This document shows, piece after piece, positions 20,696-35,300 of a stretch of DNA of 40,968 bases (the first letter of the stretch is position 1; each line of letters starts with the position of its first letter). Source of the stretch: Mariprofundus sp. (GTDB taxonomy: Bacteria > Pseudomonadota > Zetaproteobacteria > Mariprofundales > Mariprofundaceae). The translations under genes were made by a program, and so were the position numbers. The stretch covers positions 1 through 40,968 of the forward strand of contig JAUZQK010000029.1 of NCBI GenBank assembly GCA_030951025.1, in the 5' to 3' direction. Under the pieces are notes generated by a model. It did not search any database, was not told where the DNA came from, and saw nothing but the letters and a program-made list of their open reading frames with translations.

Positions 20696-22644
20696 TTACT
20701 TTTTACTGTTGCTGTCATCCACAACTTCAGCATCTACAATTTCTGCATCCTGAGCGGCATCTTTTTTAGCCGAACCAGCATCTGCTGCGTCATCTGCACC
20801 AGACATGTCAGATGCGCCTTCTGGCGCGGCCTGTTCCTGCTGCATCTGCTGATAAATCACTTCACCCAACTTCTGTGACTTCTCAGCCAGTTTTTCTTCC
20901 GCCGCTGTTATCGCTGCTGCATCACCGGATTCAATGGCTTTCTTGAGCTCTTCCAATGCATCTTCGATTTCTTTACGTGTTTCTTCATCGACTTTATCAC
21001 CGTGTTCTTTAAGTGATTTTTCAGTTGAATACACCAGCGCGTCAGCATGGTTCTTGGCTTCAATCTGTTCTTTCAACGCTTTATCCGCATCCGCATTGGC
21101 TTCAGCATCCTGCTTCATGCGTTCTATTTCAGCTTCAGACAGACCGGAACCGGATTCAATACGAATCGAAGTTTCTTTGCCCGTACCCTTATCTTTCGCA
21201 TGCACATGGATAATGCCGTTGGCATCGATATCAAAGGTCACTTCGATCTGTGGCATGCCGCGCGCTGCTGGCGCAATGCCTTCAAGATTAAACAGCCCCA
21301 TATCTTTATTGGCTGAGAACAGATCACGTTCACCCTGTGCAACTTTAATCGTTACAGCCGTCTGGTTATCGGCAGCAGTGGTATACGTCTGGCTCTTCTT
21401 GGTTGGGATAGTGGTGTTCTTCTCGATGATTTTATTAAACAAACCACCTTCAACTTCGATACCAAGTGATAATGGTGTGACATCGAGTAACAATACGTCC
21501 GTCACATCGCCAGTCAAAACCGCACCCTGAATCGCTGCACCAATGGCAACCACTTCATCCGGATTCACGCCCTTATGCGGCTCTGAACCAAAGAATGCCT
21601 GCACTTTTTCCTGCACTAGCGGCATACGAGTCTGACCACCAACCAATACCACTTCATGGATATCAGAGGCTTTTACACCGGCATCTTTCAAAGCCTGTGT
21701 ACAAGGTTTTAAGGAAGCTTCAACCAAGTCACCTACCAGGCTTCAAACTTGGCACGGGTGAGCTTGATCAACAAATGTTTAGGACCGGTTGCGTCTGCTG
21801 TAATGAACGGCAGATTCACTTCAGTCTGCTGGCTGGAGGAGAGTTCAATCTTGGCTTTTTCAGCTGCTTCTTTCAGACGCTGCAAGGCCAGTTTATCGGC
21901 CATCAAATCAACGCCCTGTTCTTTCTTGAATTCTGCAGCCAGATATTTGATCAGCACCTGATCGAAATCTTCACCACCAAGGAAGGTATCGCCGTTGGTC
22001 GCTTTTACTTCAAATACGCCATCACCGATTTCCAGTACGGAAATATCAAACGTACCACCACCGAGATCGTAAACTGCGATCAAATGATTTTCTTCAGTTT
22101 TATCCAAGCCATAAGCCAGAGCAGCAGCAGTGGGTTCGTTAACAATACGCAACACGTTCAAACCGGCAATCGCACCCGCATCCTTGGTAGCCTGACGCTG
22201 TGAGTCATTGAAATAGGCAGGCACAGTAATGACCGCATCTTTGACTTCTTCGCCGAGATAATCTTCAGCAGTTTTCTTCATTTTCTGTAAGGTAATCGCA
22301 GAAACTTCCTGCGGACTCATTTTTTTGCCATCCACTTCCAACCAGGCATCACCATTATCGGCGGCAACGATGGGGTAGGATACCAGCTCATGGTGATGTT
22401 TGGTTTCAGCCGAATCAAACTTGCGTCCGATCAAACGTTTTACCGCATAAAATGTATTGTCCGGATTGGTCACCATCTGACGCTTGGCCGATGCACCGAC
22501 CAAACGCTCATCGTTGGCAAAGGCCACGATGGATGGTGTGGTGTTATCGCCTTCCGAGTTGGCAATCACTTTCGCTTTATCGCCTTCCATGACCGCTACG
22601 CACGAGTTGGTGGTTCCGAGGTCAATTCCTATTACTTTCGCCAT
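20696..22644 (-). pseudogene. dnaK: DnaK chaperone gene split by a one-base frameshift
   Basis: Hsp70 chaperone. The ATG at 22644 follows AGGAG and opens with [15 protein letters not shown]; the ATPase domain runs normally to LTRAKFEAW and then hits TAG at 21733-21735 after 303 codons. In the next frame the protein resumes at once with [11 protein letters not shown] and continues through the substrate domain and acidic tail to TAA at 20696. Restoring one base near 21739 (a GCC read for GCC plus C) gives a continuous protein of about 649 residues, the normal length. Everything else is intact, so either a recent mutation or a sequencing error is likely; given the gene's importance and the run of Cs, an error is my first choice. 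Confidence 0.93.
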
Positions 22645-22690
22645 TTCATTTCTCCTGATCAATTTCTTATCAATTATCTTATGTATCTAG

Positions 22691-26629: not shown

Positions 26630-26658
26630 TTGACACCTATTCATCGACATCGTAAATT
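26630..26658 (+). promoter_or_regulatory. Sigma-70 promoter for the first Roadblock gene
   Basis: TTGACA at 26630-26635 is an exact -35, followed by a 17-base spacer and TAAATT at 26653-26658 (4 of 6 to TATAAT). It gives a leader of about 30 bases before the ATT start at 26695. The rest of the 26488-26694 gap holds A/T-rich sequence with no other convincing signal. Confidence 0.7.
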
Positions 26659-26694
26659 TAGGTTCTTTCGCATTACTTTACAGGGGGATAGGTC

Positions 26695-27078
26695 ATTTCA
26701 CTTCAACATGAGCTTGAACGGCTGCAAGAAGAAATGGATCTCATTTTCATTCTCATTGCCAATGATGAGGGCTTGGTGATGGCCGAAGCAGGAGAAGCTC
26801 CCGGCGAAGATTTTGCGCCCTATTCGGCCACAGTCATCGAAACAGCACACAAAATGTCATTAACCGGCAATCTCGGTGATCCCGTTTGCAGTGCGCTTGT
26901 ACTCAAACGCGGCCGCATGCTGATTATGCATGAAGCCAATGTGGGCGGTGAAAGTATTTACCTGTCCATCTTGTGTCGCAAAGTGCCGGCCGGTGTGCAA
27001 CGCTTGCTTCAACGCATTATTGACTGCTTGTCCCAGGCTTTATTGGGTCATCGTCATCAGGATTCACTCAATGGCTAA
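26695..27078 (+). CDS. Roadblock/LC7 domain protein, probable ATT start
   Basis: A 127-residue Roadblock/LC7 protein, the fold of MglB-like GTPase partners. It has an N-terminal helix LQHELERLQEEM, then strands LIFILIANDEGLVMAEAG, and a C-terminal helix. The first ATG in frame (26734) would remove the N-terminal helix. The ATT at 26695 lies seven bases after GGGGG (26683-26687), and a stop at 26689-26691 precedes it, leaving no upstream ATG, GTG or TTG. A paralogue at 31956 aligns from this point (ISL...LE), so I take ATT as the start. The next gene overlaps its end by eight bases. Confidence 0.7.
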   Translation: MSLQHELERLQEEMDLIFILIANDEGLVMAEAGEAPGEDFAPYSATVIETAHKMSLTGNLGDPVCSALVLKRGRMLIMHEANVGGESIYLSILCRKVPAGVQRLLQRIIDCLSQALLGHRHQDSLNG

Positions 27079-27556
27079 TCAATACAAAGAAGCCTGCCGC
27101 CGAGAACTCGAAAACCTGGTATCGCGCGAAGCTAATCTGGATGCCGCTTTATTATGCAGTGTTGATGGTTTGCCGGTTGCATTTGTTTCCGATATTGATC
27201 TGGAGATCGATGCCATGTCTGCCATGTGTTCATCGATGTTATCGCTCGGTGATGCTCTATCGATTCAAGGCGGTGATGATGCATGCATTCAGGTAGTAAC
27301 CCAGTCCCGCAGCTGCACATTTGCCCTTATTCATGCTGGTGATGAATTATTATTGGCCTTGATGGGTAACCGTTCACTAAAACTCGGCATGTTATTGGGT
27401 CATGCCCGTAAAGAAGTTGAAATCATTGTTGAACTCATGAATAAGTCGAATCGACAAGACAAGGCTGCACAGGCCTCATTGCCCTTAAAAAACAAAAAAC
27501 CTGCACTACTTGAGGAACTGGTAAATCGTGTTGTTCAAGAAGCACAGCACAAATAA
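27071..27556 (+). CDS. Roadblock/LC7 domain protein with C-terminal extension
   Basis: A 161-residue protein: helix ACRRELENLVSREANLD, then LDAALLCSVDGLPVAFVSD and a long alternating helix-strand core, a Roadblock/LC7 pattern (about 5-115), then a charged C-terminal extension of about 35 residues. It overlaps the previous gene by eight bases, so the two Roadblock proteins are likely made together and may form a heterodimer. The start is ATG 27071; an upstream frame to 26930 overlaps the previous gene and looks non-coding. Confidence 0.75.
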   Translation: MANQYKEACRRELENLVSREANLDAALLCSVDGLPVAFVSDIDLEIDAMSAMCSSMLSLGDALSIQGGDDACIQVVTQSRSCTFALIHAGDELLLALMGNRSLKLGMLLGHARKEVEIIVELMNKSNRQDKAAQASLPLKNKKPALLEELVNRVVQEAQHK

Positions 27557-27580
27557 ACAGGTGCGATAATCATGTTCGTT

Positions 27581-27586
27581 TATAAT
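27581..27586 (+). promoter_or_regulatory. Possible -10 box before the unknown gene
   Basis: A perfect TATAAT stands 51 bases before the ATG at 27637, but the -35 region is poor (CAGGTG). It may give a secondary promoter within the Roadblock/GTPase cluster. Confidence 0.35.
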
Positions 27587-27636
27587 GCTTCTAATCTAGC
27601 CTACCATTACCACACCACCGAACAGAGGATGGACCT

Positions 27637-28278
27637 ATGAATTCACTTGTTTTTCTCCGTCGCATGATTATCAGCCAAAAGCCTTCCCGAATTGATTACA
27701 CTGTGGGGCAAGACGTAAAAAGCATTTATTATGAGCGCTCAGGCTTTGACGGCAGCCTTGATGAAGTCGTGCAAGCCTTGAGAGACATTTTTCAATCTGA
27801 TTCGGTTAGTATTGTTACCTGCACCGACTTCAACCCCTTGAGCACATCACGCATCTTTGCACCGCAGGCTATATGCTCTACCTTGGCTGGTTATAAGTTC
27901 GATGCTGAAACACGGGCTGTGCTGCTCAGCTTCACCATGCGTTTACCCCCCTTGATGGTCAGACTGTTCCCTTTGCAGCGCTATAACTTTCAGGATAATG
28001 CAGCCTATATGAAAATGCATATGCAATTTCAACATGACGGCGTATTCCGCATGCAGCAATATATTGCCCAGGCAGATAACTCATTCGACGAAATCGTACG
28101 ATTAAGGGTTATGGTCGCAACCTACATTTTGGGCTTAATTGCGCCCAGCGAAAAAGCCAAAGAAGCAAGTCATAATATGACGCAACAAGTTATAAATCAG
28201 CCACGTCAACAAGTCTCGCAAAAAAGCAAAAAGGTCAGCCTGCTTAGCAGAATTATTCGCCGCATCAGGGGGCTATAA
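27637..28278 (+). CDS. Unknown 213-residue protein of the Roadblock/GTPase module
   Basis: A soluble 213-residue protein I do not recognise. It has a mixed helix/strand body (about 1-175) without signal peptide or clear membrane segment and a polybasic C-terminal tail (about 195-213: SKKVSLLSRIIRRIRGL). That amphipathic, arginine-rich end could bind membrane or nucleic acid. Its stop abuts the GTPase start directly, and an AGGGGG before the GTPase ATG lies within its last codons. A good start site (GAGGA) precedes ATG 27637. As the gene always next to a GTPase, it could be an effector or regulator; this is inference. Confidence 0.65.
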   Translation: MNSLVFLRRMIISQKPSRIDYTVGQDVKSIYYERSGFDGSLDEVVQALRDIFQSDSVSIVTCTDFNPLSTSRIFAPQAICSTLAGYKFDAETRAVLLSFTMRLPPLMVRLFPLQRYNFQDNAAYMKMHMQFQHDGVFRMQQYIAQADNSFDEIVRLRVMVATYILGLIAPSEKAKEASHNMTQQVINQPRQQVSQKSKKVSLLSRIIRRIRGL

Positions 28279-28863
28279 ATGCAAGATGAAATCAAACAGG
28301 TTGTTAAACTTGTCATTACAGGCCCTGTCAATGCCGGCAAAACCACCATGGTACAGAATCTAAGTGATTCACAAATTGCGGCCACCGATGTCGCAGCTAC
28401 TGATCATGTCTCTCAACTCAAAAGCATGACCACGGTTGGGCTTGATTTTGGTATTCTTAAAATCGATGAAACACTGGAATTGCATTTATTCGGCACACCC
28501 GGTCAATCCCGCTTTAATTTCATGTGGAATATTTTATCCAAGGGTGCCATTGGTGCTATCTTTTTAGTCGACAGCACATCGGATGATTCGTTGCTCGAAA
28601 TGAAAAAAATGTTCGATTATTTTTCTGAACATGTTGATTTACCCGTTGTGGTCGGTGCAACCAAACAGGATTTGGAAGGTGCGAAAAGCATTGAAGAATT
28701 AAAAATACTGCTTAATCTTGGCGACACTATGATTATGCCCGTCGATGCCCGCAAAAAAGAAGAGAGCAAAACACTGGCTTTAACGTTATTGGGCAATGCT
28801 TTGCTCGATGCGCAAGAAGAAGAAGGCGATTACGACGATTCAGATTACGAAGATTTGTTTTAA
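28279..28863 (+). CDS. Small GTPase, COG2229 type (CvnD/MglA-like)
   Basis: A 194-residue GTP-binding protein of the bacterial Ras-like kind paired with Roadblock proteins, as MglA is with MglB. Motifs: G1 GPVNAGKTT (15-23), switch I region TTVGLDFG (51-58), G3 FGTPGQSRF (71-79, where the usual Asp is replaced, as in COG2229 proteins), and G4 ATKQDL (127-132, Thr for the usual Asn). The last 15 residues are strongly acidic (EEEGDYDDSDYEDLF). It lies in one unit with two Roadblock proteins and an unknown protein, so it is probably a switch regulating a cell-surface or polarity process. Confidence 0.82.
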   Translation: MQDEIKQVVKLVITGPVNAGKTTMVQNLSDSQIAATDVAATDHVSQLKSMTTVGLDFGILKIDETLELHLFGTPGQSRFNFMWNILSKGAIGAIFLVDSTSDDSLLEMKKMFDYFSEHVDLPVVVGATKQDLEGAKSIEELKILLNLGDTMIMPVDARKKEESKTLALTLLGNALLDAQEEEGDYDDSDYEDLF

Positions 28864-28887
28864 TCACAACAATTATTGCACCCTCAT

Positions 28888-30204
28888 ATGATCATATTTA
28901 TAGATATCGCTCGTAATTTATTCGTTTTCTTCGGCTTATTATTGCTTGCATCGTGTGCACAGCCAATTAAAAGCCTTAGCAACAACAAACCAATCATCTC
29001 CACAACGACTATCACACATACAGATATTATTATTCAAGCAGCAAAAACTGAAAAACTGAAACTGTCCCACTTTTTACCATCCTCCCCTCAAGACCCATTG
29101 CTCGAAGGCATTCGACCAGCCGATATAACCATGGCCAAAAAAATGGCCAAACAGAACTTTGAACGCAGTTGGAAGACCATTAGCCTACGCTCCCGTTTTG
29201 TGCGTGAACGGCTACTGCTCACGCTGAAACAGTTAAATGCACCAGCCTCGCTGCAGGTTATCCCTGCGGTCGAATCGACTTATAATCCTTATGCTTTATC
29301 CCATGCTGGGGCGCTTGGCTTATGGCAATTGATGCCACGTACAGCACGCGTATTGGGAGTGGAATCAAACACAAAACACAATGGCCGCAGAAATATCAGC
29401 ATGTCCACCACGGCTGCCATCCGTTATCTGCAAAAGATGCATCAGCGTTTCAATAGCTGGCCTCTGGCGCTGGCCGCCTACAATATGGGGCCTAATGCTG
29501 TAGCGAAACGTTTAAAGAAACGGGCATGGAAAGTTACAGATGGCCTCGAGAATATGCCAATTCCAACGGGAACCCGCGCCTATGTGCAGCATATCATCGG
29601 TTTAGCGGCTCTGTTGCATGATGCAACATTTGAATTCCCAACACCGATCACTACCCGTGCGCTGCAAGTACAAGCGCCTGTTGACCTTCAACGCTTGGCT
29701 AAGCTCAGTGGCATGACAAAAAACGATCTTTTTCGTTTCAATCCCAGCCTCAATAAAAGCCAGTATTTACATAACAGCGTCACCATTCATGTGCCCACAT
29801 CCCAGTACGACACACTGCAACATAACATCTCGCAAGCTGAACCCCTTTATATCAACAAAACCATTCAACACGGCGACAACCTGTGGACGATCGCCCGCAG
29901 CTACCACACTTCAGTTGCAACCATCAAAAGTCTCAATACGCATATGGGTAGATATTTGCGTATCGGTCAACATTTGAAAGTACCCGCGCATCACTTCGCT
30001 CAAAACAGTGCAGCTTATAACCCATTGTTATCTGACGGTTATCGTATGCGCTATAAAGTGCGTTCCGGTGATTCACTTTGGCGCATTGCCAACCGTTTCG
30101 GCACTACAGCCAAGGCCATTGCGCGGGTCAATCAAATTTCACAACATCATCTCATCCGTGCGGGTGATATCTTATGGGTACTCACCAGGGTGCGCCCAAG
30201 CTGA
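28888..30204 (+). CDS. mltD: MltD-like lytic transglycosylase lipoprotein with LysM domains
   Basis: Cleaves peptidoglycan glycan strands to anhydro-muropeptides. The 438-residue protein has a lipoprotein signal with lipobox LASC (Cys23), an SLT-type catalytic domain with Glu129 in PAVESTYNPYALS and the GALGLWQLMP helix, then two LysM peptidoglycan-binding repeats (about 325-370 and 389-436; GDNLWTIARSY, GDSLWRIANRF). A TTG at 28876 adds four residues; ATG at 28888 is more likely. It starts 24 bases after the GTPase, so the module and this wall enzyme are plausibly cotranscribed. Confidence 0.9.
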   Translation: MIIFIDIARNLFVFFGLLLLASCAQPIKSLSNNKPIISTTTITHTDIIIQAAKTEKLKLSHFLPSSPQDPLLEGIRPADITMAKKMAKQNFERSWKTISLRSRFVRERLLLTLKQLNAPASLQVIPAVESTYNPYALSHAGALGLWQLMPRTARVLGVESNTKHNGRRNISMSTTAAIRYLQKMHQRFNSWPLALAAYNMGPNAVAKRLKKRAWKVTDGLENMPIPTGTRAYVQHIIGLAALLHDATFEFPTPITTRALQVQAPVDLQRLAKLSGMTKNDLFRFNPSLNKSQYLHNSVTIHVPTSQYDTLQHNISQAEPLYINKTIQHGDNLWTIARSYHTSVATIKSLNTHMGRYLRIGQHLKVPAHHFAQNSAAYNPLLSDGYRMRYKVRSGDSLWRIANRFGTTAKAIARVNQISQHHLIRAGDILWVLTRVRPS

Positions 30205-31850
30205 ATGTTTTGAAGTTTTTCAGTTTCATTATACTGAGCATGCTGATCAGCTGCTCTCCATCCGAGCAGTCCAAACCCATTGATTATGATAGCGCGGCAG
30301 ATATTCCGGCATCTGGCGACCGCTTGGTCGAGGCCAGTATTGGTGATGCCAGCAATTTGATACCGATGATTGCTGGTGATGCATCGAGCCATGCCGTGGC
30401 TGGACAATTGTATTTGTCTTTGCTCAAGTATGACAAAAACCTGAATCTGGTTGGTCAATTGGCCAAGTCATGGGATATATCGAAAGACAATAAAACCATT
30501 ACCTTTCATTTGCGCAAAAACCTTAAATGGACGGATGGTTTAGCATTCACAGCAGCAGACTGCATCTTCACCTTAAAGCTGATGCAAAATAAACACACCC
30601 AAAGCGCCTACAAAGCCGATTATGCTTTGGTTGATCGGTTTGATAGCCCTGACCCACTCACTTTTATCGTGCATTATGATGAAGCATTTTCACCCGCTCT
30701 ATCCTCATGGTCATCGCTGGCCATATTACCCAAACATATCTTTAAAGATGTGGATATCATGAACACCACATTATCACGCCACCCCAAAGCCACAATTGGC
30801 CCTTATCAACTGCTCGACTGGCAAGCTCAGCAATCCATCTTGATGCGTGCCAATCCGCATTATTTTGATGCGCCTGTCTGGATTACTGAACGCCTTACAC
30901 GCATTATTCCTGATCGTGCCACTCAGTTTTTAGAACTCAATGCCGGACGACTGGATTCGGTCAATTTAAGCCCTATTCAATATGCCCGCTTGTTTGATAC
31001 AAAAGCACAGTTAAAAAATAATTTCAATCGGTTCAAATATCTGGATTTTGTTTACACCTACCTTGGTTTCAATTTAAAACGCGCACCATTTGACAATGCC
31101 CGTATACGTCAAGCCATTGCCTATGCCATTGATCGACAAGAGATTCTCGATGGTGTGCAACTCGGTTTGGGGGAGACTATCGCCAGCCCTTACAAGCCGG
31201 GCACATTCTGGGTCAATCAAAAGCTCAAACCGCGTGTTTATAATCCCGCAAAAGCCAAAGCTATGCTTGCTGCAGAGGGCTGGGTCGATAGTGATGGCGA
31301 TGGTATTCTGGATAAAAATGGCCAGCCTTTTGCATTCACCATTTTAACCAATAATGGTAATAAACAGCGCGCTGATGCCGCCACCATCATGCAATACCGC
31401 CTTAAAGCTATCGGCATCAAGGTGACCATACGTTTGGTTGAATGGTCTGCATTTATCGAAAACTTCATCAACAAACGTCAATTCGACGCTGTCATTCTAG
31501 GCTGGTCCTTATCGCCTGATCCCGATCAATTCACCATTTGGCATTCATCCCAAACTGGAGCACGACAGTTTAACTTTTTGTCCTACAACAATACCGTAGT
31601 CGATACGGCACTGGAAAAGGCTCGCCGCACCTTTGATCGTCAACAGCGCAAACAATATTACGATATCATGCAGCAAGAGATTTATAACGATGTACCGATG
31701 GTCTTTCTCTTTGCGCCATATTCGCTGCCGGTCATGCACAAACGATTTCATGGCATCAAAGCTGAACCAGCAGGTATCGGTTATAACGCTGAACATTGGT
31801 ATGTGCCGGCTGAATTGCAAAAGTATCAGATCACATCAATCGCACCTTAA
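30174..31850 (+). CDS. Peptide-type ABC substrate-binding lipoprotein
   Basis: A 558-residue solute-binding protein of the SBP_bac_5 (OppA/DppA) family, usually the periplasmic receptor of an oligopeptide or muropeptide importer. The signal peptide FFSFIILSMLISC ends in a lipobox at Cys27. The mature part has LAKSWDISKDNKTITFHLRKNLKWTDG, the usual family segment, then FDNARIRQAIAYAIDRQ and LVEWSAFIENFINK. No permease or ATPase genes are adjacent. The ATG overlaps the mltD end by 31 bases, so the two probably form one unit, possibly recovering wall fragments. Confidence 0.86.
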   Translation: MGTHQGAPKLNVLKFFSFIILSMLISCSPSEQSKPIDYDSAADIPASGDRLVEASIGDASNLIPMIAGDASSHAVAGQLYLSLLKYDKNLNLVGQLAKSWDISKDNKTITFHLRKNLKWTDGLAFTAADCIFTLKLMQNKHTQSAYKADYALVDRFDSPDPLTFIVHYDEAFSPALSSWSSLAILPKHIFKDVDIMNTTLSRHPKATIGPYQLLDWQAQQSILMRANPHYFDAPVWITERLTRIIPDRATQFLELNAGRLDSVNLSPIQYARLFDTKAQLKNNFNRFKYLDFVYTYLGFNLKRAPFDNARIRQAIAYAIDRQEILDGVQLGLGETIASPYKPGTFWVNQKLKPRVYNPAKAKAMLAAEGWVDSDGDGILDKNGQPFAFTILTNNGNKQRADAATIMQYRLKAIGIKVTIRLVEWSAFIENFINKRQFDAVILGWSLSPDPDQFTIWHSSQTGARQFNFLSYNNTVVDTALEKARRTFDRQQRKQYYDIMQQEIYNDVPMVFLFAPYSLPVMHKRFHGIKAEPAGIGYNAEHWYVPAELQKYQITSIAP

Positions 31851-31891
31851 GCATGTTACTTGAATCCGCCTTTGGGTTTAAACATTGTTCG

Positions 31892-31920
31892 TTGAACTTA
31901 TGGGCTGGAAAGGTGATAGT
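31892..31920 (+). promoter_or_regulatory. Possible promoter for the third Roadblock gene
   Basis: TTGAAC (31892-31897), a 17-base spacer and GATAGT (31915-31920) match 4 of 6 positions in each hexamer. It is a modest but well-spaced candidate in the 105-base gap before the ATC start. Confidence 0.4.
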
Positions 31921-31955
31921 TCTACTTTAGCTGACATCATCCTAGGGAGGCTGTT

Positions 31956-32312
31956 ATCTCTTTATCCGATCAACTTGAACTCATTCGACAAGAACAAGGT
32001 ATGGCCTGTATTATCATCATTGATGGTGAAGGACGTATGATTTGCCAGGTTGGAGAAACACCGGAAGGCGAAGAATTTGCGCTTTATTCGCCCATGGTCA
32101 TGGAAACGACCCGTCGCATGGCGATATGTGGCGGTTTTGGTGACCCGATCTGCAACGGTGTTATCCTCAAACAGGGGAAAATATTGATCACCCATGAAAC
32201 GGCTATCGGTGATGTCGTAATGTACACCTCTTTGTTATGCCAGAATAAGGTGCCTGCAGGTTTACTCGATGTGCTCAATAAAATTTCCGCGCTGGTGGCA
32301 AACGAGTTTTAA
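31956..32312 (+). CDS. Roadblock/LC7 domain protein, probable ATC start
   Basis: A 118-residue paralogue of the protein at 26695. The two share DEG or DGEG turns, GE.P..EFA.YS...ET...M, GDP.C and the VPAG... helix. From the TGA at 31932 to the ATG at 32001 there is no in-frame ATG, GTG or TTG. The ATC at 31956 lies five bases after AGGGAGG (31944-31950), and the residues from it (SLSDQLELIRQEQG) form the expected first helix. I therefore take ATC as the start. It ends flush with hrpA on the opposite strand. Confidence 0.7.
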   Translation: MSLSDQLELIRQEQGMACIIIIDGEGRMICQVGETPEGEEFALYSPMVMETTRRMAICGGFGDPICNGVILKQGKILITHETAIGDVVMYTSLLCQNKVPAGLLDVLNKISALVANEF

Positions 32313-35300
32313 TTATGCGGCGGTTAATTCCTGCCAGAACTTTTCAAGCCGTTTGACAGATACAGGTACGGATGTTTTTAAACCCTGTGCAAATAATGAC
32401 ACCCGAAGCTCTTCCAGCCGCCATCGATAAGCCAGCAGCGGCTGAGAATCCTCACCATGCTGCAGGCGCTGTTTGCATTCATGTTCGTAAGCTTGCCATA
32501 AACCCTGCACCAGCTGGCTATTGGCCTGATCCTGCTTGAGATTGGGCCCGGCTCGAGCCAGGCGCAGTTCAGCAGCTTGTAAAAAACGTGGTAGATGTTG
32601 CAACCAGATGTACGGTGTATGGCGCACAAAACTATCAGCCATCAAGTTATCCAGCTGGGCTTGAATATCGACCAACACCGGACGCAGTGCTGCGGCGCGT
32701 ATTTGGATCATCTTTTGTTGTAAATCTGCATGGGCTTTAAGGCTATCAATAATAAACCCTGCCAATCGAGTACCCTGCTCAACAATATCGGCCCGATGCG
32801 CCTGCAAAGATGTTTCAAAATCGGCTTGATTGCGTGGTATTGGCTTGATCATAAACACGCTGTTAAACACGTTAATCATCATATCATCCAGCAAATCACT
32901 TTGATGTAGAAGCCCTGCATAGAGCAAACTGATCTCACGCTGACGCGGTATATGCTGGCGCAGATATTGAATCTGACTATTCAAACTCAACATAAACAAA
33001 CGGCGCACAGCATCAAACATGGCCTGATCGGCAGCTTGCCTGCTTTCAAACAAGTCAATCGCGACACTGTGTCGATGATCCACCAAGGCCGGAAACATTT
33101 GCAAAAGCAAACGCCCCTGTCGTTGTTCTATGACTGTGGGTAATGACCCGAAATCCCAACGTGTGATACCTGTACGCCGAATATCTAAAGTATCACTTGC
33201 CTGAATATCTGTTTGACCATCAGTGCGATGATTTGTTCGGGTATCGGTTCGAACATCAGCCCGAACATCAGCCCGAACACCAGGTTTTTTTACCATCTTA
33301 GGCTGCAAAACATCACGCACTTGCTGGCCATAACGATGTTGCAACACAGCTAGGTTTGTATCTCGGGCTATGCTTTTGCCCTGCTCATCATAAACAGAAA
33401 CAGCGATCAACAAATGTTGTGGTAGTTTATCCAGCTGCCAATCGCGTGTTGTCATCGCAATGCCTGTCATACGCTGTAATTGTTTGGAAAAAGCACGCAA
33501 CAACGAACCTTGCCCAAAAGCCATGCTATCCGCACAGGCTCTGGCAAAGTCCGGTGCCGGCACAAAGTGTTTTCGTTGAGATTTCGGCAAGCCTTTAATC
33601 AATGCAATCAGCTTCTCAACCAGCATGCCCGGCACCAGCCATTCAAAGGCATGGTTTTCCAACTGCCCCAAGGCAGCAAGTGGCACATGCACTGTGATGC
33701 CATCGGCTTGATGGCTGGGATCAAAATGATAACTGAGTTTTAAATTCAATTGTTTGACCTGCATGCGGTTGGGAAACAAAGCTGCATCAACAGCGCTGGC
33801 TTGCTCATGCAATAATAATGCCTCAGACATAAACAATAAACGCGGCTGCTGCCGTTCAGCCGATTTGCGCCAGAACTCGAACGATTTACCATTGCATATA
33901 TCTGCCGCAATACGCGCATCAAAGAAATCATAGCGCGCCTGCTCATCAATCAGCAAATCTTTACGCCTTGTTTTGTGTTCCATTTTCTCCAATTTGTGTA
34001 CTAAAGAACGATTATATTTGAAGAATTCAGCATGACTATGGTATTCCATTTGCACCAGAGCATGGCGAATAAACAACTGCCGCGACAAGTCAGGATCAAT
34101 GGAGCCATAAGCAATGCGACGGCCAGTAACAATCGGCAAGCCATACAATGAAACTTTTTCAATCGCCACCACTTGTGCAGCTTTGGCCGACCAATGCGGT
34201 TCACTGTATTGCCGTTTGATCAAATGCGCCGCCAACGTTTCCAGCCAGGCTGGATCAATCGCAGCAGCACAACGGGCAAACACACGCGTTGTTGCCAACA
34301 AGCTGGCCGCCATCAGCCATTGCGGTGGTTTCTTGGCCAGTGCGGAGCCCGGAAACAAAAACAACTGTAAATTGCGTGCCCCCAGATAACCTTTTTCCGG
34401 ATGCCGCAATGCAATTTGACTCAATAAACCAGATAACAGAGAACGATGCACACTATCGGCATCAGCCGCTTGTTGATTGGGTTTCATCTGCAACTCACCC
34501 ACCACAGCCAACAACTGCTGATGCAAATCATGCCACTCACGTAAACGCATAAAAGCCAGATAATGTTGCTGACAGGTTTTTTTCAATTGCGCACGGCTTA
34601 ATTGGGCGACCTGCTCATGATACCAGTTCCATAATTTCAGCCATGATAAAAAGTCTGATGTATCATCAACAAATAAACGGTGTTTGGCATCAGCCTGCGG
34701 CTGGGATTCTGCCGGACGCAGACGCGGATCCTGTACCGATAATGCCGCAACAATAATCAACACCTCATGCAGTGCCCTTTCCTTATCAGCCTGAATCAAC
34801 ATACGCGCCAAACGCGGGTCTAATGGCAAGCGCACCATCGATTTTCCTATGGCTGTAAGCTTTCGGGGTTGGCCAACGCCACCTGCCTCAATGGCCTGCA
34901 ACTCTTCCAGCAAGCGATAACCATCACCGATGGCGCGTTTCTCCGGCGCATCCATGAATGTGAAATCTTCAATCCTGCCCAAATCCAGGCTAAGCATCTG
35001 CAAAATCACCTTAGCCAAATGGGTACGACGAATTTCTGGATCTGTATGTTCAGGCCGATTGTTAAAATCATCAGCTGCATACATACGGAAACAAATGCCT
35101 GCCGCCACCCGACCACAACGACCAGCACGCTGGTTGGCACTGGCCTGAGAAATCGATTCAATCGGTAAACATTGAATCTTGCGCTGGGTACTGTAACGAC
35201 TGATGCGCGCTAGCCCCGAATCAATTACAAAACGAATACCCGGCACTGTTAACGATGTTTCAGCCACATTCGTCGCCAATATAATGCGTCTGCCCCGATG

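Follow-up and report, generated by a model that had tools for sequence, protein, structure and literature searches.

Candidate ATT and ATC start codons in two paralogous MglB-like Roadblock genes of Mariprofundus

Start regions of paralogues A and B

The stretch of DNA analysed here (the window) comprises 40,968 nucleotides of contig JAUZQK010000029.1 from the iron-oxidizing bacterium Mariprofundus sp. (Zetaproteobacteria; assembly GCA_030951025.1). It carries on its forward strand two paralogous genes, termed A (26695-27078) and B (31956-32312), whose proteins appear to begin at ATT (26695-26697) and ATC (31956-31958), respectively. The assignments come from reading of the open reading frames and from comparison with relatives, complemented for A by a structure model. 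A preliminary description made from the sequence alone had named both codons as starts of Roadblock proteins; its coordinates, stops and ribosome sites hold for both genes, as does the lack of any in-frame ATG, GTG or TTG ahead of a downstream ATG. The proposed alignment of the two proteins from the ATT/ATC codon is borne out as well, with 41-43% identity beginning at the isoleucine of the start codon.

Inspection of the start of A reveals an in-frame TAG (26689-26691, forward strand) two codons 5' of ATT, followed by GTC and then by ATT itself. The first in-frame ATG, GTG or TTG after the TAG is the ATG at 26734, 13 codons past ATT. The Shine-Dalgarno site, AGGGGG (26682-26687, forward strand), is replaced in relatives by AGGAGG, AAGGAG, AGGGAG or AGGGGT, and its GGGGG (26683-26687) ends 7 bases 5' of ATT. 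For B, an in-frame TGA (31932-31934) precedes the Shine-Dalgarno site AGGGAGG (31944-31950, forward strand), which by sequence reading ends 5 bases 5' of ATC, and the next ATG, GTG or TTG is the ATG at 32001, 15 codons past ATC.

A candidate sigma-70-type promoter lies upstream of A (26630-26658, forward strand), where TTGACA (26630-26635), a 17-base spacer and TAAATT (26653-26658) give 10/12 matches in a consensus scan. The scan of A is not significant by itself (1 promoter found versus a mean of 0.6 in shuffles); TTGACA is present 5' of A in 12/12 genomes at nearly equal distance. In the window the promoter stands ~36 bases 5' of ATT, the leader would be ~30 bases long, and it contains neither ATG nor GTG nor TTG in any of the three frames. 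This arrangement bears on the notion that A forms the C-terminal part of a longer protein made by readthrough of the TAG or by a frameshift, for which retention of the TAG in every copy of A might be cited. We find that notion scarcely credible given the nearby promoter, the leader devoid of start codons and the fact that B has no equivalent TAG. The conservation of the TAG would follow from its position in the Shine-Dalgarno spacer, GGATAG.

Mean energies of the duplex with the anti-Shine-Dalgarno sequence amount to -9.3 kcal/mol for A (n=11) and -9.7 kcal/mol for B (n=8), compared with -8.4 kcal/mol for infC (n=8) and -7.3 kcal/mol for the lipoprotein gene rlpA (n=4). The median of 190 control groups is -6.2 kcal/mol, and 45 of them reach -8.5 kcal/mol or below. 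That is to say, the Shine-Dalgarno sites of A and B are stronger than usual and properly spaced, yet not unique. RNA structure at the two window starts is no better than in shuffles (z +1.39 for A, +0.35 for B).

Conservation of the start column and frequency of such starts

Homologues of the A/B family were sought in 61 genomes, and B, infC, rlpA, pcnB and the initiator tRNA were scanned for in the 23 genomes of Mariprofundus. A is present in 12 of the 61 genomes, all Mariprofundus. Named loci of this gene come from Mariprofundus and Zetaproteobacteria records, including those of isolates M. ferrooxydans PV-1, M. erugo, M. micogutta, KV and EBB-1. All 12 copies have ATT at the same codon, each with a TAG two codons 5' and an AGGRGG-type or similar ribosome site. 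Only one of the eight conserved isoleucine columns of A keeps one codon in all 12 copies, and that column is the start itself. Among invariant degenerate columns, 4/34 retain a single codon throughout. Because two of these four are CTT at columns 3 and 7, near the start, conservation of the initiation region may account for part of the ATT constancy.

These comparisons also address whether translation begins instead at the downstream ATG (26734 in A, 32001 in B), leaving the upstream codons untranslated. In both genes of the window this ATG is the earliest canonical codon, and ATG occupies codon 14 in 8/12 copies of A. We nevertheless judge such a start very improbable. Codons 2-13 of A look coding from the distribution of variable sites across codon positions (7, 5 and 10 of 12 at positions 1, 2 and 3), the Shine-Dalgarno distance is right for ATT and not for the downstream ATG, and homologues start at the ATT column. 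Codon 14 is moreover AAG in genomes G001 and G015, where the next canonical codon falls in the second strand of the fold. A start at ATG 26734 would, according to the structure model, remove helix 1 (residues 3-13). Relatives beginning at the downstream ATG, which the preliminary description had considered decisive against its proposal, were not seen among the homologues compared.

B is present in 14 of the 23 Mariprofundus genomes. Its aligned start is ATC in seven copies, ATT in three and ATG in three, such that the homologue alignment suggested in the preliminary description finds a non-ATG codon kept at the same position in 12/12 copies of A (ATT) and 10/14 copies of B (ATC or ATT). The ATG of B stands at the exact start codon in M. 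erugo and one codon later in PV-1 and G010, the last of which also has GTG at the start codon itself. A tree of 26 rows fully supports the split between A and B and groups the three ATG copies of B in one clade (100/98).

Beyond the genus, five weak homologues of A and B were found (19-30% identity). Two have a canonical codon exactly at the ATT column, namely ATG in G037 and TTG behind GGGAGG in G028, although a further ATG lies 25 codons upstream in the latter. The remaining three have ATG before the column, by two columns in G035 and G041 and by five in G023. Because canonical starts occur at or near the column in these homologues, the column itself appears to be old and ATT/ATC to be a derived state within Mariprofundus.

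To our knowledge, few bacterial genes besides infC have a conserved start outside ATG, GTG and TTG. The frequency of such starts was assessed by screening 2,368,219 bases from 13 genomes, which yielded 298 ortholog groups with at least 3 members, 282 of them usable. Groups passed if homology began at an ATT/ATC/ATA column, a ribosome site was present and no canonical column competed with it. Four of the 282 groups passed: infC (8/8), A (11/11), B (8/12, plus 2 canonical) and an rlpA-type lipoprotein (4/4). The screened stretches had been picked around A, B and infC, the thresholds were tuned after the data had been seen and rlpA was first spotted by eye, so that rlpA is the sole unprompted find. 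Earlier, looser screens had flagged 92 of 596 open reading frames and had found a flagged member in 33 of 122 groups, mostly gene overlaps, while a version with 234 groups proved too permissive. An intermediate screen left 33/282 groups without a canonical column among those listed, and these were read by eye.

The gene rlpA (TIGR00413) occurs in 23/23 genomes, with three copies cut by contig ends. In all 20 readable copies the signal peptide opens with ATT CGC, preceded by a GGAGAG-like site (for example G000:C35:11878-12468). The gene overlaps its upstream neighbour, and in the G020 copy a GTG lies five codons ahead of the ATT. Among 25 rlpA loci from other genera of the family, read by eye and unscored, most have an ATG in reach of the signal peptide (for example G023, G025, G085, G089 and G077). 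The infC gene was found in 20/23 genomes; its expected start codon is ATT in 20/20, and some copies also have a TTG 5' of the ribosome site. No match to pcnB was obtained at the family cut-off in the 23 Mariprofundus genomes. What may surprise a specialist is the number: besides infC, two paralogues and rlpA in one genus, that is, three further genes from two unrelated families, each with orthologues or outgroups whose starts at the corresponding place are ordinary. A gene finder limited to ATG, GTG and TTG would truncate or miss the proteins of A, B and rlpA.

Fold, family and gene neighbourhood

The identity of A and B as Roadblock proteins, as put forward in the preliminary description, was examined by family search and structure modeling. 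A Pfam search at E 0.01 returned no family for A or B, PF03259 included, whereas the adjacent gene at 27071-27556 does match. An AlphaFold model of A from a 25-row alignment (predicted local distance difference test 86.5) contains a helix at residues 3-13, strands at 16-23 and 28-33, a helix at 40-58, strands at 66-70, 74-83 and 86-94 and a helix at 101-117, which is the Roadblock order of helix, two strands, helix, three strands and helix. The top 15 among the PDB matches listed are Myxococcus xanthus MglB chains, with a template modeling score of ~0.7 over ~120 columns; identity of A to the solved structures is 13-19%. The model thus supports the Roadblock assignment for A as a predicted MglB-like fold, while the family search leaves A and B without a Pfam match.

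Seven codirectional genes span A to B (26695-32312). A is followed by the second Roadblock gene (27071-27556, forward strand; PF03259 by Pfam match), which has a canonical start (ATG in the window; ATG or TTG in 11 relatives listed) and shares 8 bases with the end of A in the window, while in some relatives it abuts or trails A. Next in the same gene string come a 213-residue uncharacterized protein with no Pfam match (27637-28278, forward strand; open reading frame and Pfam search) and a small Ras/Arf-like GTPase (28279-28863, forward strand; PF00025 and PF00071 above cut-off) that is a possible partner and, by context, may be MglA-like. A LysM/SLT transglycosylase and a family-5 solute-binding protein precede B. 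The distance between A and B in relatives is ~5 to 16 kb, and in M. erugo the two genes are on separate contigs. A convergent helicase-like gene has its stop, at 32313, abutting that of B.

A third, distant Roadblock gene is located ~3 kb 3' of A in several relatives (for example G010:C54:35065-35409), and canonical codons are available in 8/8 copies read; no match to it was found in the window's own genome. Because the second and third Roadblock genes have canonical starts, the odd start seems peculiar to A and B and not a general trait of Roadblock genes here.

Initiation at AUU and AUC and its possible consequences

We consider it likely that ATT 26695 and ATC 31956 are the true starts of two MglB-like Roadblock paralogues, in which weak codons sensitive to initiation factor 3 (IF3) are offset by strong Shine-Dalgarno sites and output is held low. 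Comparison of sequences gives good support for the start sites, for how old they are and for their conservation. The start-site reading given in the preliminary description is upheld by this conservation, by Shine-Dalgarno placement, by the fold, by canonical starts at the same column (B of M. erugo and two of the five homologues from outside the genus) and by loss of the downstream ATG in two close species. Low output and IF3 dependence of A and B are suggested by analogy: the regulatory reading offered earlier, of low translation linked to IF3, fits the behavior of AUU and AUC and the ATT of infC in the genus.

Several observations weigh against this reading. Of the ten copies of B that have ATC or ATT, just four (G000, G020, G011 and G006) are wholly free of an upstream in-frame ATG, GTG or TTG; the other six have a canonical codon 4 to 40 codons up, which in three of them is the TTG inside the Shine-Dalgarno site TTGGAGG. 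The start of the fourteenth copy of B, in G008, is ambiguous. The weak start appears dispensable for B in three close species, which form one clade, since these use ATG. As G001 and G015 are closely related, their AAG codons probably represent a single loss event, and the N-terminal alignment of the homologues from outside the genus is unsure because identity is just 19-30%. The arm pattern used for the initiator tRNA found none in 5/23 genomes, among them G009, G007 and G022; such a pattern would miss tRNAs with other arm changes. As for the earlier view that two paralogues share the trait, both A and B do have it, but so does rlpA; three close species have ATG in B, and the two other Roadblock genes in the vicinity have ATG, GTG or TTG.

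The initiator-tRNA pattern gave 28 matches in 18/23 genomes, and 27 of these are tRNA genes with the anticodon CAU. The remaining match (G011:C23:107575-107594) has CTAATAA at the place of the anticodon loop (AAU) and is the one item that would favor a special initiator tRNA, with an anticodon such as AAU or GAU, that reads ATT/ATC properly. It was rejected as a tRNA: ARAGORN reports none there, and the flanking sequence does not adopt a tRNA fold. It is a partial copy of the initiator anticodon arm with one base changed, 16 kb from the true gene, and has the look of a mobile element's integration-site copy. With every other match carrying CAU, we regard a special tRNA as extremely improbable.

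Under our preferred reading of ATT and ATC as weak starts, the promoter 5' of A would drive transcription and the 30S subunit would bind via the Shine-Dalgarno site, whereupon ordinary fMet-tRNA (CAU) would meet AUU or AUC with a third-base mismatch. Because the initiator tRNAs found are ordinary CAU species, the proteins of A and B should begin with methionine and not isoleucine. IF3 would often reject the mismatched pair, leading to low output that depends on free IF3; given the good promoter of A, the limit would lie at initiation. Keeping the dose of A and B low may matter for the adjacent small-GTPase module, and the dose of an MglB-like protein relative to its GTPase is a natural guess at the reason.

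It is also possible, if somewhat doubtful, that the ATT/ATC starts are real but neutral, with a strong Shine-Dalgarno site sufficing and the codon retained through drift, free of any regulatory role. B does shift among ATC, ATT and ATG, the sites of A and B exceed the control median in strength and prokaryotic start codons are known to drift (PMC5622118, from the portion available). Drift is harder to reconcile with ATT being invariant in 12/12 copies of A, 20/20 of rlpA and 20/20 of infC, though one base change leads to ATG, and with confinement of the trait to 4/282 groups. At the other extreme, A, B, rlpA and perhaps more genes might form a small AUU/AUC-started set beside infC, an IF3 regulon in which the level of free IF3 would govern together the amounts of a polarity-type GTPase regulator and of a septal/polar cell-wall lipoprotein. 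We think this unlikely; if true, it would link translation state to cell polarity and division.

Known systems offer partial parallels. In E. coli and others, infC combines AUU with a Shine-Dalgarno site as A and B do, and Mariprofundus infC itself has ATT, but infC is autoregulated by its own product IF3, whereas A and B encode Roadblock proteins. E. coli pcnB, like A and B, is a non-IF3 gene, and is limited by AUU (Binns and Masters 2002, as cited in the accessible part of PMC13009471); its protein is unrelated to theirs. Staphylococcus aureus cvfC1 (AUU) and ccpN (AUA) likewise have conserved non-canonical starts behind strong Shine-Dalgarno sites, with cvfC1 first in its operon, and non-canonical codons there give ~10% of AUG output; these starts are proven by Ribo-Ret and reporters, with no paralogue pair described in the same part of PMC13009471, while those of A and B are proposed from comparison. 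According to the available sections of PMC5472188, Streptomyces sigR is also a regulatory gene with a genus-wide non-canonical start, an extensive ribosome site and a short overlap with the next gene, and it is repressed by IF3. It differs in being a sigma factor gene whose GTC start is mutation-proven, as opposed to ATT/ATC starts of Roadblock genes put forward on comparative evidence only. In vitro, a smaller fraction of what is made from the AUU/CAU mispair is full-length when IF3 is present (PMC10158994, in the portion available).

Myxococcus MglB (Roadblock-LC7) shares with A its predicted fold and a small GTPase gene, which in the window lies three genes downstream of A. A differs in its low identity to the solved structures and lack of a Pfam match, and its role as a GTPase-activating protein or partner is putative. 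The open-access literature, subscription papers not being covered, yielded no report of Roadblock genes or of such start codons in Mariprofundus. Phenomena of this kind have precedents; what appears to be new are the genes and the lineage. Cultured strains (M. ferrooxydans PV-1, M. erugo, M. micogutta, EBB-1 and KV) make the claim testable, and PV-1 provides a natural comparison within one strain, with ATT in A and ATG in B.

Elsewhere in the window, a DnaK-like frame on the reverse strand (21733-22662) stops after 309 residues, which we take to be about half the usual DnaK length, and perhaps reflects a frame error in the assembly.

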